Positions 27,299-33,672 of a stretch of DNA of 49,556 nucleotides are shown here, in pieces (positions within the stretch are counted from its first letter, which is position 1; the number at the start of each line of letters is the position of its first letter). A model generated the notes under the pieces. That model saw only the letters and a list, made by a program, of their open reading frames with translations, did not search any database and had not been told where the DNA came from. Source of the DNA: an uncultured Mycoplasmatota bacterium (GTDB lineage Bacteria; Bacillota_I; Bacilli_A; RF39; UBA660); NCBI GenBank assembly GCA_946497145.1, contig CAMMJA010000006.1, forward strand, positions 1-49,556, in the 5' to 3' direction. The position numbers were made by a program, and so were the translations under genes.

Positions 27299-27997
27299 TT
27301 ATAGATTTCCTGTTTGCCTTAAAATGGAATATAAATTATAAAATTTACCATCATTTTTTTGAGCATAAGTGGTACGGCCACTACTTCCATCACTATATGA
27401 TTCTGAACCATACAAGAACTTAATGACTCCCGTTACTTCTGGTATCGCTCCAAAAGACCTTAGTTGTTCTGAATTTTCTTGTAACGATTTAAGTAATGGC
27501 GTATATTCTACAGTACCATCTTCCATTAGATAAAGTAAAGCTTCTTGCCCTGCTGCTTGTCCAAACTCGCCTACTGCAACATCCACAATCTCCTTAGAAA
27601 AATTATTGATTGTATAGTTTTTGATCCCAATTCCAGTCAATCCTGCAATTGTGTATCTCGAAGGATTAATGGTCACTACTACTTCTTTGTTATTATTTTG
27701 AATGGTCATAAAAATCCCTAAACTATTATTTGACGACGTACCAATACTATAAACTGTATCATTAGAACCATTAATACAATTATTAGAATCAAATATTAAG
27801 GACGGCTGATCATCAATGGTATCTTCCTTATCATCTATCACTGCACCATCGGATACATCTTTATCATTGGTTTCCGTCGATTCCTGCTTTCCAAATACTC
27901 CTTTATCATATGCAATATAACCAATCAACGCAATAACAATCACTACTAATACTGTTATCAATATAACAAATCCCGTATTATTTTTTTTATTTTCCAT
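27299..27997 (-). CDS. Membrane-anchored hypothetical protein (232 aa)
   Basis: The function is unknown. A short cytoplasmic start (MENKKNN) is followed by one helix (TGFVILITVLVVIVIALIGY) and an acidic linker (DVSDGAVIDDKEDTIDDQ). An extracellular domain of about 165 residues contains two Cys-poor beta-rich segments, GVIKFLYGSESYSDGSSG among them. Layout recalls the 23.2-kb protein. It is monocistronic. Confidence 0.65.
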   Translation of the reverse strand: MENKKNNTGFVILITVLVVIVIALIGYIAYDKGVFGKQESTETNDKDVSDGAVIDDKEDTIDDQPSLIFDSNNCINGSNDTVYSIGTSSNNSLGIFMTIQNNNKEVVVTINPSRYTIAGLTGIGIKNYTINNFSKEIVDVAVGEFGQAAGQEALLYLMEDGTVEYTPLLKSLQENSEQLRSFGAIPEVTGVIKFLYGSESYSDGSSGRTTYAQKNDGKFYNLYSILRQTGNL

Positions 27998-28116: not shown

Positions 28117-28144
28117 AAAAAGTTCACAATACTTGTGAACTTTT
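28117..28144 (-). terminator. Terminator after spoVAEb
   Basis: AGTTCACAA and TTGTGAACT arms followed by TTTTTAATA on the minus strand. Confidence 0.75.
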
Positions 28145-28493
28145 AATCTTTTGGTTTAAATAGTAAAGCAAAGAAAAAAGTAAATACGATGGCTGAAGTG
28201 ATACCAGAAGCCGTTAAGTCAAACATTCCCATGACCAGACCAATGAAACCAAAGTCGGCTGCTTTTTCTAGTGCTCCATGAATTAACAAATGACCGAAAC
28301 TAGTAATTGGTACTAAGGCACCTCCACCAACATGGGCAATAATTTTGTCATAGATACTAAAGGTATCTAAAAAGGCACCACAAATTACAAAAATGCTGGT
28401 AATATGACCTGGTGTTAATTTGGTATTGTCTAAAATAATCTGTCCGATCAAGCAGACAAAGCCCGCAAATAGAAAGGAATACAAATAGATCAT
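28143..28493 (-). CDS. spoVAE: Stage V sporulation protein AE (SpoVAEb)
   Basis: One of the inner-membrane proteins of the spore channel that moves Ca-dipicolinate into and out of the spore. It is a 116-aa hydrophobic protein with GQIILDNTKLTPGHITSIFV and the diagnostic HVGGGALVPITSFGHLLIHG. It overlaps the spoVAD stop by 4 bases. spoVAEa and spoVAF do not follow. Confidence 0.95.
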   Translation of the reverse strand: MIYLYSFLFAGFVCLIGQIILDNTKLTPGHITSIFVICGAFLDTFSIYDKIIAHVGGGALVPITSFGHLLIHGALEKAADFGFIGLVMGMFDLTASGITSAIVFTFFFALLFKPKD

Positions 28494-29485
28494 TCTACCA
28501 CCTCCAAACTAACTGCATGAGCAATACTTAAAATATTTTCTTTTTGATAGACGAAGGTAGGACTAAAGAGTGCTCCTGTTGCAACCCAAAGAACTCTTTT
28601 TAACTTTTTTTGTTCCATCAATTTGATAATATGACTACAGTTTACTAAAGCACTACAAACAGGGCCACTACCTCCTGCCATCACTTCTTTTTGTTCTTCT
28701 AGATCATATAGCATCGTTCCACAATCATCGTAGTTGTTGGAAATATCTATTCCATACTCTGTTTTCATATAATCAATTAAAATTTCTTTTCCATATACCC
28801 CTAGGTCTCCTGTTACAATCAAATCATAATCTGTTACTTGACGTTTTAAATCCGTTAAATGACGATAAATGGTATCGGCTGCTCCCGGTGCCATAACAGC
28901 ACCCATGTTGTAAGGATCTTGTTGGGCCATATCGATCGGACGACCAATGGTAGAACTTTCTACTCTTACTTTACTTTTTTCATTCGATAAATACAAACAT
29001 GCGCCTCCTGTTGCTGTAAATGTCGCTGTTTTGGGTTTTGGTGCGCCATATTCTGTAGGATTACGAAACTGCTTTTCACTAGACATGTTGTGAGAACTAG
29101 TTGCCGTAATACAATTTTTTATCTTTCCACTATCGATCAAACTTGCCCCAATGATCATTCCTTCGGTACTTGTCGCACAAGCACTATATATTCCTAAAAA
29201 AGGAAGATTCAATTCCTCGATTGCATAACTGGAAGAAGTAATTTGATTAAGCAAATCCCCAGCAATAGCCAAATCGATTTCTTCCTTTTTTTTGTTCGCT
29301 TTTTTTAACAAAATATCAATACTTTCTTTTAATAGTTGTACTTCGGCTGTTTCCCAACTTTTTTCGCCATTATATAAATCTTCGTACGTTTTATCAAATA
29401 ATTTTCCAAGAGGTCCTTTGGCCTCATAAGGTCCTGCTACAGTACTTGTCGCATTAATGTACACGTTATCATATTGAAATGTCAT
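28490..29485 (-). CDS. spoVAD: Stage V sporulation protein AD
   Basis: A peripheral spore inner-membrane protein with a thiolase-like fold that binds dipicolinic acid, the only soluble part of the SpoVA channel. Landmarks are YINATSTVAGPYEAKGPLG at the start, GIYSACATSTEGM and VMAPGAADTIYRHL, ending with TGALFSPTFVYQKENI. At 331 aa it is full length. It lies 3 bases after spoVAC. Confidence 0.96.
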   Translation of the reverse strand: MTFQYDNVYINATSTVAGPYEAKGPLGKLFDKTYEDLYNGEKSWETAEVQLLKESIDILLKKANKKKEEIDLAIAGDLLNQITSSSYAIEELNLPFLGIYSACATSTEGMIIGASLIDSGKIKNCITATSSHNMSSEKQFRNPTEYGAPKPKTATFTATGGACLYLSNEKSKVRVESSTIGRPIDMAQQDPYNMGAVMAPGAADTIYRHLTDLKRQVTDYDLIVTGDLGVYGKEILIDYMKTEYGIDISNNYDDCGTMLYDLEEQKEVMAGGSGPVCSALVNCSHIIKLMEQKKLKRVLWVATGALFSPTFVYQKENILSIAHAVSLEVVE

Positions 29486-29488
29486 ATT

Positions 29489-29929
29489 CTACCCTCCCAT
29501 AATGAGTAACCGCAAAAGTCCAAAGAACCATGCTGATACAACTCCATACAAAATTACAGAACCGGCTAATTTAAAGATGTTGCTACCAAGTCCAAAAATA
29601 GGTCCTTCTTTGCGATATTCCATTCCAGCACTCGTCATAGAATGTGCAAAACCCGTAATGGGAATTAACAAACCACATTTCGCAAACGTAACCCACTTGT
29701 CAAAAAAGCCCAATGCTGTAAATAAAGATGCAAAAAAGATAAGAGTTACAATCATAAAAACCGAAGCATCCTGCGTCGAAATATCCAAATTATAAGAATA
29801 AAATTCAATGAGCAATTGTCCAATCACACCCACAATTCCTCCAGTAACAAAAGCAATAAAAGCGTTTTGTGCCCTTGTTTCTGTCGGTTTATGTTGACTC
29901 ACTAAGTTTTCATATACTTTTTTTTCCAT
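29489..29929 (-). CDS. spoVAC: Stage V sporulation protein AC
   Basis: A mechanosensitive-like membrane channel subunit for dipicolinate movement and germination. The cytoplasmic N terminus NLVSQHKPTETRAQNAFIAF is followed by several helices and the conserved LIPITGFAHSMTSAGMEYRK with FGLGSNIFKLAGSVI. The locus keeps only the C-D-Eb core that is universal in spore-formers; spoVAA and spoVAB are absent. A sigma-G-like promoter lies just upstream. Confidence 0.96.
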   Translation of the reverse strand: MEKKVYENLVSQHKPTETRAQNAFIAFVTGGIVGVIGQLLIEFYSYNLDISTQDASVFMIVTLIFFASLFTALGFFDKWVTFAKCGLLIPITGFAHSMTSAGMEYRKEGPIFGLGSNIFKLAGSVILYGVVSAWFFGLLRLLIMGG

Positions 29930-29974: not shown

Positions 29975-30002
29975 AAAAAAAGATAAAATCACTTTTATCT
30001 TT
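29975..30002 (-). terminator. Terminator after sigF
   Basis: AAAGATAAAA and TTTTATCTTT arms followed by TTTTTG on the minus strand. Confidence 0.7.
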
Positions 30003-30666
30003 ATGCACATAATTTATCTTTTAATTTTGTTAGAATTTTATTTTCTTTTCGTGATACTTGTACTTGACTCATTCCTAACCTTTCGGACGTTTCCTGCTGC
30101 GTCATTTCTTCAAAATAACGCGATGCAATCAACTGTTGTTCTTCTTTAGTCAATGTTTTAATCTGATCTTTTAAATCCATGATATTAGCATTGTATTGTT
30201 TTTCTTCTTGACGAATCGAATCGTATAAGTTTAATTCTTTGCCTTCGTCCGTTAGACAAAAATCTAAACTACGGACAAAATCTGTCGCACTTCTTGCTTC
30301 CATGATCTTACTCTCATCGATTTCCAAAAATAAAGCAAGTTCGCTATCCGTTGGTATCCGCATCAATTTTTGACTTAATACTTCTTTGGCTTTTTCGATC
30401 GATTTATTTAGTTTCAACAAATCTTTGCTTACTTTGATACTCTTATCCTCTCTAATATACTTAGATACTTCCCCTACAATATAAGAAAAAGCATAGGTCG
30501 AAAACTTTGCTTGATATTTCGGATCAAAATGTCGATAAGCGTTCATTAAACCAATCATACCAACTTGATATAAATCTTCTTTATCATAGAAGTGTTCATA
30601 TTTTTTGATAATTGAATAAACCAATTTTTCATACTCCATCATGATTTCTGCTTCTTTTTCGTTCAT
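30001..30666 (-). CDS. sigF: Sporulation sigma factor, SigF-type
   Basis: A sigma-70 family factor of the sporulation group, expected to run early forespore transcription. Region 2 has EDLYQVGMIGLMNAYRHFD and FSTYAFSYIVGEVSKYIRED. Region 4 ends with the hallmark GMSQVQVSRKENKIL. At 221 aa it lacks about 30 N-terminal residues compared with B. subtilis SigF. Position (after spoIIAA, before spoVA) argues for SigF rather than SigG, but the two are close. It starts 11 bases after spoIIAA; the anti-sigma gene spoIIAB that normally lies between them is missing. Confidence 0.85.
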   Translation of the reverse strand: MNEKEAEIMMEYEKLVYSIIKKYEHFYDKEDLYQVGMIGLMNAYRHFDPKYQAKFSTYAFSYIVGEVSKYIREDKSIKVSKDLLKLNKSIEKAKEVLSQKLMRIPTDSELALFLEIDESKIMEARSATDFVRSLDFCLTDEGKELNLYDSIRQEEKQYNANIMDLKDQIKTLTKEEQQLIASRYFEEMTQQETSERLGMSQVQVSRKENKILTKLKDKLCA

Positions 30667-30677
30667 ATTATCCTCTC

Positions 30678-31007
30678 CTAAATTTGCAACATTTGAAAAA
30701 CGCCTAATTCACTACTACTTTGATAAACATCTTCAAACACGGTTCTCATTCCTTCACTTTTTACCCCACATAACACTAAATTTCCTTGAAAAGAAACGAT
30801 TTGATGATAATTTTCTCTAATGGTGTCAATTCCTTCCTGTGTAATTTCTTCTAACCCTTCCAAATTAAAGGTAAAGTATTTAATTCCTTTTTTTTGTACG
30901 AAATCATTTACTTGATCGGCTAGTTTCTTTGATGTTGCTGCATTTAAAATTCCATTTAAGCGAATAAACAAGATTCCTTTTCTAAACTCCATATTCATTT
31001 CTAACAT
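30678..31007 (-). CDS. spoIIAA: SpoIIAA-like STAS protein without the phosphorylation serine
   Basis: A STAS-domain anti-anti-sigma factor. In B. subtilis SpoIIAA frees SigF from SpoIIAB and is switched by phosphorylation of Ser58 in DSSG. Here the surrounding strand and helix are conserved (FTFNLEGLEEI, then ENYHQIV), but the DSSG position reads TQEG (residues 56-59). The serine is Gln, and no neighbouring Ser or Thr sits at that exact position, although a Thr is one before it. The ATG at 31007 follows GAGGTGG. Product 109 aa, normal length. The change fits the absence of the kinase SpoIIAB. Confidence 0.75.
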   Translation of the reverse strand: MLEMNMEFRKGILFIRLNGILNAATSKKLADQVNDFVQKKGIKYFTFNLEGLEEITQEGIDTIRENYHQIVSFQGNLVLCGVKSEGMRTVFEDVYQSSSELGVFQMLQI

Positions 31008-31073
31008 ATTTCCACCTCGCACATTAAATATAGAATATCTTTTTTTGAAAATATACCAATTCGACAAAGTATG

Positions 31074-32405
31074 TCATTTTTTTCTTTCGACAATTTGTTG
31101 TAAACTGTAAACTATCAAAAAGATTCCTAGTCCTAACAACAGCGATAACAAAATATTTTTCCACGTAAACCACTGCGACAGTTTTTTAATCAAAGAGACA
31201 GCTTCTTTTTTGTCCGTTCCTTCTTTTTTATTTTCTTTGGATAATTTTAGTTGAATAGATATCGGCATCGATTGCTCTTCGTAGACAAGATGAGCGGTAT
31301 AAGTTCCGTTCTTGTTCCAATCAATATTATGAGAAAAATGTAACTTCTCGAGGGGGACAGTAGAAGATACGATTAAATCTTGTACTGTCAAATTCGGTTT
31401 TGTTAAAGTGATGACATCGTGTGTTACAATTTGATCTCTTGTTCTTTTATAATAAAGATTGATACTTTGACTTTCATCTTGTCGATAATTTTTTACACTT
31501 CCATAATAACCATCTAAATAGTTTCGTCTCATACGATAGTATTTGTAATATGTATCTTGATAACGATAATACGTAATAGGGTCCAGTACATGTACCATAT
31601 CATTTTCTTCTAAGGAAACGTCGCTTTCTAAAATAAGATCATCCCACTGTGGATAAGAAATGTATTCTTTTAACGCAATCGAATCCACATACTTGCTTTG
31701 ATCAGGATCTATCCAATAGGTATGAAACACTTCTATGTATGGTTTTGTATCGTTCGTTTCTGTTCCCAGCTTAAATTGAATGGGACTAGTATTTTGAAAA
31801 TCAGAAAGATAAACATTACAGGTCAAATCAATTGGACTATACTCTTTGGGTAATTGAATCGTTAAAACACTATTTTTCGATAAGAAAAAAGAAGTTTCAT
31901 TCAAAATACCATTTCCAACTTGGAAAAGAAGATCACTATTACAATTTTCGCATTGAAATTGTACTGGGATCTTTTTTCCTTGATGTAATACTTCGATTTC
32001 AGAAAGATACAATTTGTTCTTTGGTCCGTCAATATCGTAAAGTACTAGCGTCGAAATTTTCTTTAACTCCTGATATGGATACGTAATCTTAGTTTCGATC
32101 AAACGATCTTGTTTGGATACTGGCATCTCTTTAGACCAAATAGAAAATGGTTGTACTTGTTTTTCAGTACTTTGGTACGGATAGTCCAAAGGATTTTCAC
32201 CGACAGCATAATACTTTTCCGTATATTCTTTTTCTTCTTGATACATTTTGTATTTTTGAATCACTTTTCCTTGCTGCAATGGAGTATCGAAAACTAAAGT
32301 ATCTGTTTCTTGCCATGGTCCATAATCTGTATAGTAGGTCTTAGCATGCACCACTTGAGGAAGCAAACAAGTTATGAGTAACAGAAAGACAAATAATTTT
32401 TTCAA
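31074..32405 (-). CDS. Secreted, membrane-anchored protein of unknown function in the spoIIA locus (443 aa)
   Basis: Not recognised. A signal peptide (MKKLFVFLLLITCLLPQVVHA) is followed by about 370 extracellular residues rich in Tyr and beta-type patterns (YYTDYGPWQETD, YRYQDTYYKYYRMRRNY). There is one CENC pair near residue 152 and another Cys in DLTCNVYL. A C-terminal helix (NILLSLLLGLGIFLIVYSLQ) and a basic tail anchor it. It lies between dacF and spoIIAA, 66 bases before the spoIIAA start, and the dacF terminator separates it from dacF. In B. subtilis nothing is inserted there. It probably acts at the cell surface or septum during sporulation, by position only. Confidence 0.75.
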   Translation of the reverse strand: MKKLFVFLLLITCLLPQVVHAKTYYTDYGPWQETDTLVFDTPLQQGKVIQKYKMYQEEKEYTEKYYAVGENPLDYPYQSTEKQVQPFSIWSKEMPVSKQDRLIETKITYPYQELKKISTLVLYDIDGPKNKLYLSEIEVLHQGKKIPVQFQCENCNSDLLFQVGNGILNETSFFLSKNSVLTIQLPKEYSPIDLTCNVYLSDFQNTSPIQFKLGTETNDTKPYIEVFHTYWIDPDQSKYVDSIALKEYISYPQWDDLILESDVSLEENDMVHVLDPITYYRYQDTYYKYYRMRRNYLDGYYGSVKNYRQDESQSINLYYKRTRDQIVTHDVITLTKPNLTVQDLIVSSTVPLEKLHFSHNIDWNKNGTYTAHLVYEEQSMPISIQLKLSKENKKEGTDKKEAVSLIKKLSQWFTWKNILLSLLLGLGIFLIVYSLQQIVERKK

Positions 32406-32452: not shown

Positions 32453-32482
32453 CAAAAAAATCACTTTAAAATCGTGATTTTC
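32453..32482 (-). terminator. Terminator after dacF
   Basis: AAATCAC and GTGATTT arms followed by TTTTTG on the minus strand. Confidence 0.65.
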
Positions 32483-33627
32483 CCTGTTACAACATCTTCT
32501 AAATTTTTTAACAACAATCGTAAAAAGCCACTTTTTTCTACATTTTCTTGTACTGTTAAATCCACTTCTTGAATCACCTTGTCACCATCTACTACTTGGG
32601 CTTTTCCTACCACATCTCCTACTTTGATCGGAAGTTTTACCTCATTTAAGTTAAGTTTCAATTCATAGTTTTTATCGTCATCCGTTTTTTTATTTAAAAT
32701 GCTGATATCTTGTACTGGAACTACGTTTACTTTTTCTTTGGTGGCTTTCTCTAATTTAATTTCTCCAACTACTTCATTTTGTTTTTTTAAATTGGTCACT
32801 TTATACGTAGTGTAACCATAATCTAATAGATCCATCGTTTCACTGTTGCGAACTTTACTATCCTGTTCTCCTAACACGATGGCAATCAGACGCATACCAT
32901 CTTTTTTGGCTGTGGCTGCCAAACAATATAGTGCATTGTCTGTGTGTCCTGTTTTGAGGCCATCTGCTCCTTCATAGAAACGAATTAAACGATTGGTATT
33001 GACCAACCAAAATTTGTTCGGAGTATCGGTTCTTAAATAATCTTCATAGATACTCGAAAAATCTGAGATTTCTTCATGTTTCAATAGTTCTTTGGCAATC
33101 ATAGCCAAATCGTAAGCCGTAGAATAATGCCCTTCCTCATCTAACCCGGTACAGTTTTTAAAGACCGTATTTTTAAGTCCCCACTCTTTCACTTTATCAT
33201 TCATCATCTTTACAAAATCCGCTTCACTTCCAGCAATATGTTCTGCCATCGCTACCGTTGCATCATTGGCACTAGCAATAGATATTCCCTTCATCATGTC
33301 TTTTACCGTCATTACTTCCCCTGTTGCCAAATAAATCTGACTTCCGCCCATATCTGAAGCATTTTGACTAGCCGTCACCTTGTCGTCCCACTTCAATTTT
33401 CCTTGTTCAATCTGTTCTAAGATGATGGTTTGGGCAACCATCTTGGTAAGAGACGCCATCGGTAACTTTTCTTCTTTGTTTTTTTCAAACAAAATCGTCC
33501 CTGTCGCAGCATCGATCAAAATACCACTTTTAGCATTCGGAATTAATGTACTATCTTCGGCTTTTACAGGTATCCAACTCACACACAATCCCGTTATCAA
33601 AAGAATTAGAATCCACTTCCTCATCAT
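32461..33627 (-). CDS. dacF: Serine-type D-Ala-D-Ala carboxypeptidase (DacF/DacA family)
   Basis: A penicillin-binding protein that trims the terminal D-alanine from peptidoglycan. The signal peptide ends around VKAED. The catalytic SxxK is in MASLTKMVAQT, SxN in IASANDATVAM, and KTG in GLKTGHTDNALY. A C-terminal beta domain and an amphipathic membrane-binding tail (FLRLLLKNLEDVVTG) follow. I use the ATG at 33627 (AGGAG just upstream); two adjacent ATGs are possible. Its place before spoIIAA matches dacF of B. subtilis. Confidence 0.93.
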   Translation of the reverse strand: MMRKWILILLITGLCVSWIPVKAEDSTLIPNAKSGILIDAATGTILFEKNKEEKLPMASLTKMVAQTIILEQIEQGKLKWDDKVTASQNASDMGGSQIYLATGEVMTVKDMMKGISIASANDATVAMAEHIAGSEADFVKMMNDKVKEWGLKNTVFKNCTGLDEEGHYSTAYDLAMIAKELLKHEEISDFSSIYEDYLRTDTPNKFWLVNTNRLIRFYEGADGLKTGHTDNALYCLAATAKKDGMRLIAIVLGEQDSKVRNSETMDLLDYGYTTYKVTNLKKQNEVVGEIKLEKATKEKVNVVPVQDISILNKKTDDDKNYELKLNLNEVKLPIKVGDVVGKAQVVDGDKVIQEVDLTVQENVEKSGFLRLLLKNLEDVVTGKITILK

Positions 33628-33644
33628 ATCACTCCTAGTTTCAT

Positions 33645-33672
33645 TATTATGTTTAAAAGTGTCCAACTATGA
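33645..33672 (-). promoter_or_regulatory. Possible forespore-type promoter of dacF
   Basis: The minus strand reads TCATA, 16 bases, CATAATA, 17 bases upstream of the dacF ATG. It resembles sigma-F/sigma-G sites. B. subtilis dacF is a sigma-F gene. The spacing is slightly short, so this is tentative. Confidence 0.35.

Follow-up and report, generated by a model that had tools for sequence, protein, structure and literature searches.

The SpoIIAB/SpoIIAA/SpoIIE switch is the textbook account of how, of two cells with the same genome, one starts its own programme. In a 2012 survey, spoIIAA, spoIIAB and spoIIE were listed with the genes conserved throughout the spore-forming bacilli and clostridia (PMC3533761). 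The window analysed here, a stretch of 49,556 nucleotides from contig C6 of a 976-kb genome (36 contigs, 89.7% complete), contains the gene order dacF-spoIIAA-sigF-spoVAC/AD/AE without spoIIAB, raising the question of how the forespore sigma factor SigF could be controlled at such a locus. The order is otherwise that of the Bacillus subtilis spoIIA region, in which dacF lies before and the spoVA genes after. The original prediction had placed spoIIAA and sigF 11 bases apart with no spoIIAB between them, and both the coordinates and the 11-nt gap were reproduced (Table 1).

Table 1. Features of the spoIIAA-sigF locus and its surroundings, in positions of the window
Feature	Position	Strand	Basis
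spoVAE	28143-28493	-	Family profile matches
spoVAD	28490-29485	-	Family profile matches
spoVAC	29489-29929	-	Family profile matches
sigF, forespore sigma factor with short N-terminus, 221 aa	30001-30666	-	Family scores, SigF tree
spoIIAA-like STAS gene, 109 aa, without phosphoserine and without kinase partner	30678-31007	-	Family scores, alignment, predicted fold
CAG codon (Gln57), aligned with Ser58 of B. subtilis SpoIIAA	30837-30839	-	Read from sequence
Putative -10 element (TATATT), spaced 35 nt from the Spo0A box start	31027-31032	-	Sequence
Putative Spo0A box TTGTCGAA	31060-31067	-	Conserved 5' of the STAS gene in 92/103 loci
TTGTCGAA box, second copy, located 26 nt upstream and overlapping the 3' end of the preceding gene	31086-31093	-	Same spacing in 33/92 loci
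Conserved gene upstream, encoding a predicted secreted protein anchored in the membrane at its C-terminus	31074-32405	-	Translation, prediction
DacF-like D,D-carboxypeptidase, ancestral spoIIA neighbour	32461-33666	-	Translation: serine D,D-peptidase motifs SLTK and KTG

Both products are divergent members of their families. The STAS protein matched TIGR02886 (SpoIIAA) at E 2.5e-9, below the TIGR cut-off, and PF01740 at E 6.6e-12, while the sigma factor scored best against the SigB/F/G family and TIGR02885 (SigF) and lower against SigG, all below equivalog cut-offs. A separate full-length SigG is encoded elsewhere in the genome (G000:C29), and synteny, family scores, the SigF tree and this separate SigG together rule out another sigma factor at the locus.

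No SpoIIAB was detected in the window's own genome, where TIGR01925 gave no match at E<=10, a profile made from SpoIIAB sequences of this class gave nothing, and the single PF13581 match was a 408-aa histidine kinase; PF07228 (SpoIIE) also returned nothing. Across 145 genomes from 144 genera of the same family, neither SpoIIAB (searched with PF13581 and the in-class profile, TIGR01925 being applied to the window's genome and a class sample) nor a recognisable SpoIIE was present. The PF13581 matches in this sample were histidine kinases and two RsbU-like PP2C-HATPase fusions, PF07228 matched above cut-off just the same two fusions and a single PP2C from an unrelated context, and the in-class profile hit nothing but C-terminal ends of long sensor-kinase frames, with scores of 46 bits at most. 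As a positive control, TIGR01925 scored above cut-off in 40 class genomes, none of them from this family, and SpoIIAB was kept in 39 of 40 sampled class genomes outside the family with strong SigF/SigG matches (E below 1e-60, a threshold that does not separate SigF from SigG), the sole exception being a genome only 55% complete. The kinase loss goes back to the ancestor of a family comprising over 140 genera and is no local oddity, and SpoIIE has been lost as well.

It is highly improbable that a SpoIIAB is present and was missed, whether through an assembly gap or because the kinase is too divergent for profiles. Most genomes are draft MAGs and the window's own is 89.7% complete, but the 113 family genomes of 90% completeness or more yielded no SpoIIAB, the slot between the STAS gene and sigF is closed within a contig at all loci, and three different profiles agree; phosphosite and docking residues have likewise been lost, as described below. 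The three short open frames inspected as possible hidden SpoIIABs (L038, L188, L189) were C-terminal halves of histidine kinases. The claim that kinase gene and target residue had been lost consistently holds across the whole family and was not refuted, since neither a SpoIIAB nor a second, serine-bearing SpoIIAA was found in the genome. The RsbU-like fusions of a PP2C phosphatase with a HATPase occur in two family members (L032 in G124 and L033 in G147), and in G147 a STAS-like match adjoins the fusion.

Residue-level conservation was assessed over 103 STAS-sigF loci, one per genome sampled, in 102 of which the two genes are separated by -29 to +57 nt, the exception (G003) having a MetK-like gene between them. 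The DSSG site reads T-Q-E-G in the window, as first noted, with glutamine at the Ser58 position. Across the clade this position has drifted freely (E15 N13 L12 M11 I10 K10 Q8 S7 T3 and others), such that a phosphorylatable serine is found there in only 7 of the 103 loci. The accompanying claim that the flanking sequence stays conserved was true of the clade, in which Asp57 is kept in 91/103 loci and Gly60 in 85/103, but only partially so here, because the Asp57-equivalent has also changed, to threonine, in the window's genus. Other positions are close to invariant, namely Gly20 (103/103), Gly12 (101/103), Asn49 (100/103) and Arg17 (96/103).

Relative to a comparison set of 19 SpoIIAAs from the class and that of B. 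subtilis, conservation was lost in the clade at E21, D23, F55, S58, S59, G62, L65, G66, R67, Y68, Q70, K72, S94, G95, L96 and I99, as well as K33 and F48. Newly fixed residues were L3, E8, G12, I13, F15, R17 and A109, and conservation was strengthened at N49, C81 and E106. Among the positions that lost conservation, D23 contacts SpoIIAB. R67 is common to the SpoIIAB and SpoIIE interfaces (PMC11418112). Judged from these alignments, the classical kinase/phosphatase face has lost conservation and other residues have become fixed.

The predicted fold of the STAS protein (AlphaFold model, pLDDT 91.7) was closest to SpoIIAA from SpoIIAB complexes, with 1th8_B the best PDB match (E 8.3e-10). Within the window's genus dN/dS was 0.09-0.18, ratios that are rough because synonymous sites are near saturation, and the STAS protein was more conserved than SigF in two other compared pairs. 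The protein is therefore not decaying and is under purifying selection, with constraints different from those on SpoIIAA. A second, short STAS-like protein of approximately 80 aa that shares the N-terminal motif of the clade STAS was seen in some relatives (L170-L175), encoded in L170, L172 and L175 beside yqfC(-yqfD)-like sporulation genes; it was not found in the window's genome, and may be a paralogue of the sigF-linked STAS or act as its partner.

The sigma factor has changed as well, with conservation lost in the clade at C67, P91, K98, E149 and K240 and gained at other positions. In the SigF tree, a quick search with many weak inner branches, the clade formed one side of a branch (SH-aLRT 98) and the window's SigF grouped with SigF of the class; the Ser58 bearers were scattered, and the STAS gene had been lost several times. 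The original prediction also noted that SigF lacks its 30 N-terminal residues, and approximately 14 residues do precede the region-2.1 block in the window, compared with 43 in B. subtilis. This shortening is not tied to the kinase loss, and is ruled out as part of a rewiring, because the SpoIIAB-bearing outgroups L064 and L070 have only 18 residues before the same block.

These changes bear on a direct anti-sigma role, in which the unphosphorylated STAS protein would bind SigF and be freed by a forespore signal. Such direct action is plausible from the sequence patterns, namely an invariant STAS-sigF pair with overlapping or abutting frames, relocated conservation on the STAS protein, altered SigF positions that include the loss of conservation at E149, and the better conservation of STAS than of SigF in the two compared pairs. 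However, the literature searched contained no case of a STAS protein that serves as a direct anti-sigma factor, and several genomes lacking the STAS gene, considered below, also argue against it, leaving this reading possible but tentative. A search of the literature for a SigF E149K mutant found none.

Upstream of the STAS gene, a perfect TGTCGAA was present at 92 of the 103 loci, usually 57-61 nt ahead of the start codon, compared with 1.3 in shuffles and 0 in control stretches. A -10 element of the form TA.A.T lies at a fixed 35 nt from this Spo0A box, and a second TGTCG was found exactly 26 nt upstream in 33 of the 92 loci, the window included. Timing by transcription, one of the modes of control suggested in the original prediction, thereby gains direct sequence support. 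However, the box is present in many SpoIIAB-bearing outgroups too, so the Spo0A promoter was inherited and is ruled out as a compensating invention; being ancestral, it is not a sufficient explanation of why the kinase could be dispensed with. Nor does Spo0A transcription in the predivisional cell by itself explain forespore specificity.

The same promoter is found without the STAS gene. Four genomes (G010, G015, G017 and G026) have lost the STAS gene and carry the box immediately ahead of sigF, with Spo0A, SpoIIR and SpoIIGA all kept, and in total between 4 and 20 genomes have kept the pathway with no detectable STAS, weakening the case for an essential STAS role and weighing against the direct anti-sigma reading. 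Another explanation is that the STAS protein is a vestige, left behind after loss of the switch, with SigF under transcription alone. The repeated losses on the SigF tree, the weak STAS scores in many genomes and the retention of the Spo0A promoter without STAS are consistent with this, but dN/dS well below 1, the near-invariance of Gly20, Gly12, Asn49 and Arg17 together with the newly fixed residues, and the keeping of the pair at 102 of 103 loci make it unlikely.

The rest of the sporulation pathway is largely intact in the family, with Spo0A found in 134, SpoIIR in 126, SpoIIGA in 123 and STAS in 110 of the 145 genomes, and the window's genome encodes Spo0A, SpoIIR, a SpoIIGA-SigE pair and the full-length SigG. 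Genomes with STAS tended also to have SpoIIR (Fisher p 7e-8, without correction for shared ancestry). No classical SigF promoter was found before spoIIR. A variant motif was found there post hoc in 18/41 cases, compared with 0-7 in shuffles, and overlaps the stop codon of an upstream prmC-like gene; the corresponding stretch in many family members (L191, L193-L232) reads TGWATAA, approximately 14 nt, then CYCANTAT. This stretch may represent a forespore-sigma promoter of the clade in which the -10 is altered.

A further reading of the pathway is that it is a remnant, the family having stopped sporulating and SigF having taken a different role. SpoMAG rates RF39 as non-sporulating (PMC12536801), RF39 shows reduction or absence of SpoIIAB, SpoIIE, gerQ, spmB, spoVB and spoVD (PMC10868615), and the lack of a classical SigF promoter before spoIIR points the same way. 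Against this, Spo0A, SpoIIR, SpoIIGA, SigE, SigG and SpoVAC/AD/AE are retained, and spore formation in RF39, with different regulation, has been predicted (PMC10868615). SpoMAG may moreover be biased against the clade, because spoIIAB is listed among the genes of all its predicted spore-formers (PMC12536801), and the present results suggest that sporulation predictors leaning on spoIIAB may misclassify this clade. Loss of sporulation therefore appears quite unlikely, and members of the family are, on their gene content, probable spore-formers. With kinase, phosphatase and phosphosite lost, such spore-formers must start the forespore programme in another way.

The favoured explanation, which we consider reasonably probable, is that the SpoIIAB/SpoIIE switch was lost, that SigF is mainly gated by Spo0A-driven synthesis, and that the STAS protein is a kinase-independent accessory. 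The partner switch would have been lost as a unit in the family ancestor, a member of the reduced-genome Bacilli and probably of GTDB order RF39, with the rest of the forespore-mother-cell pathway retained. Spo0A would bind one or two boxes and activate a sigma-A-type promoter before the STAS-sigF operon, such that SigF is gated mainly by its own synthesis. The former SpoIIAA would have stayed as a closely coupled, unphosphorylatable STAS protein, having presumably lost its kinase/phosphatase-binding face and gained conservation on another residue set. It would most likely tune or delay SigF through a contact that needs no kinase, the probable partner being SigF or RNA polymerase. Several lineages have dropped STAS, with sigF directly behind the same kind of promoter, indicating that the STAS protein is not indispensable. 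The direct anti-sigma reading is a stronger version of this accessory role and overlaps the favoured explanation. In a more specific form, put forward with some reserve, STAS would act through its relocated binding surface as a direct, kinase-free regulator of SigF, some sub-lineages would rely on Spo0A-driven transcription alone, and the family would represent a sporulating lineage without a phosphorylation-based switch.

Compared with the B. subtilis SpoIIAA-SpoIIAB-SigF-SpoIIE switch, the clade has the orthologous SpoIIAA fold and SigF, the surrounding gene order, the Spo0A input and, downstream, SpoIIR-SpoIIGA-SigE, but is without SpoIIAB, SpoIIE, the phosphoserine and the kinase-docking residues, and STAS is dispensable in some lineages. 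The STAS-only proteins SypA, RbaV and HmpV (PMC8256260) are alike in that the unphosphorylated form acts, their partners being unknown, but they retain either a phosphorylatable serine or a kinase partner of the HATPase type, whereas the clade has neither. The gene-content loss of spoIIAB and spoIIE in order RF39 is already published: these genes were reported as reduced or absent, with spoIIGA, spoIIM, spoIIP and spoIIQ kept (PMC10868615). The window's genome is in keeping with that description in its gene content and its size. That study tabulated KEGG orthologues and did not cover the STAS-sigF pair, phosphosite drift, interface or promoter. The residue-level and promoter evidence goes beyond this, and the open-licence literature searched gave no mention of the phosphosite loss, the relocated conservation, the retained pair, the promoter or the clean deletions of STAS. 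As the pathway is kept on both sides of the missing switch, the minimum needed for forespore-specific transcription becomes testable.

The upstream gene of Table 1 lies 60-100 nt 5' of the STAS gene in roughly half of loci and encodes a predicted secreted, beta-rich protein with a C-terminal membrane anchor, for which there was no Pfam match and no convincing fold match (model pLDDT 74, pTM 0.38). Its candidacy as a replacement regulator is unsupported, since the product is predicted to be extracytoplasmic, is not universal and has no convincing fold match; the gene is associated with the operon, and any part in its mechanism is only putative. Elsewhere in the window, a gene at 27299-27997 (-) encodes a single-pass membrane protein with a very weak match to SpoIIIAH (E 0.004, below the cut-off).
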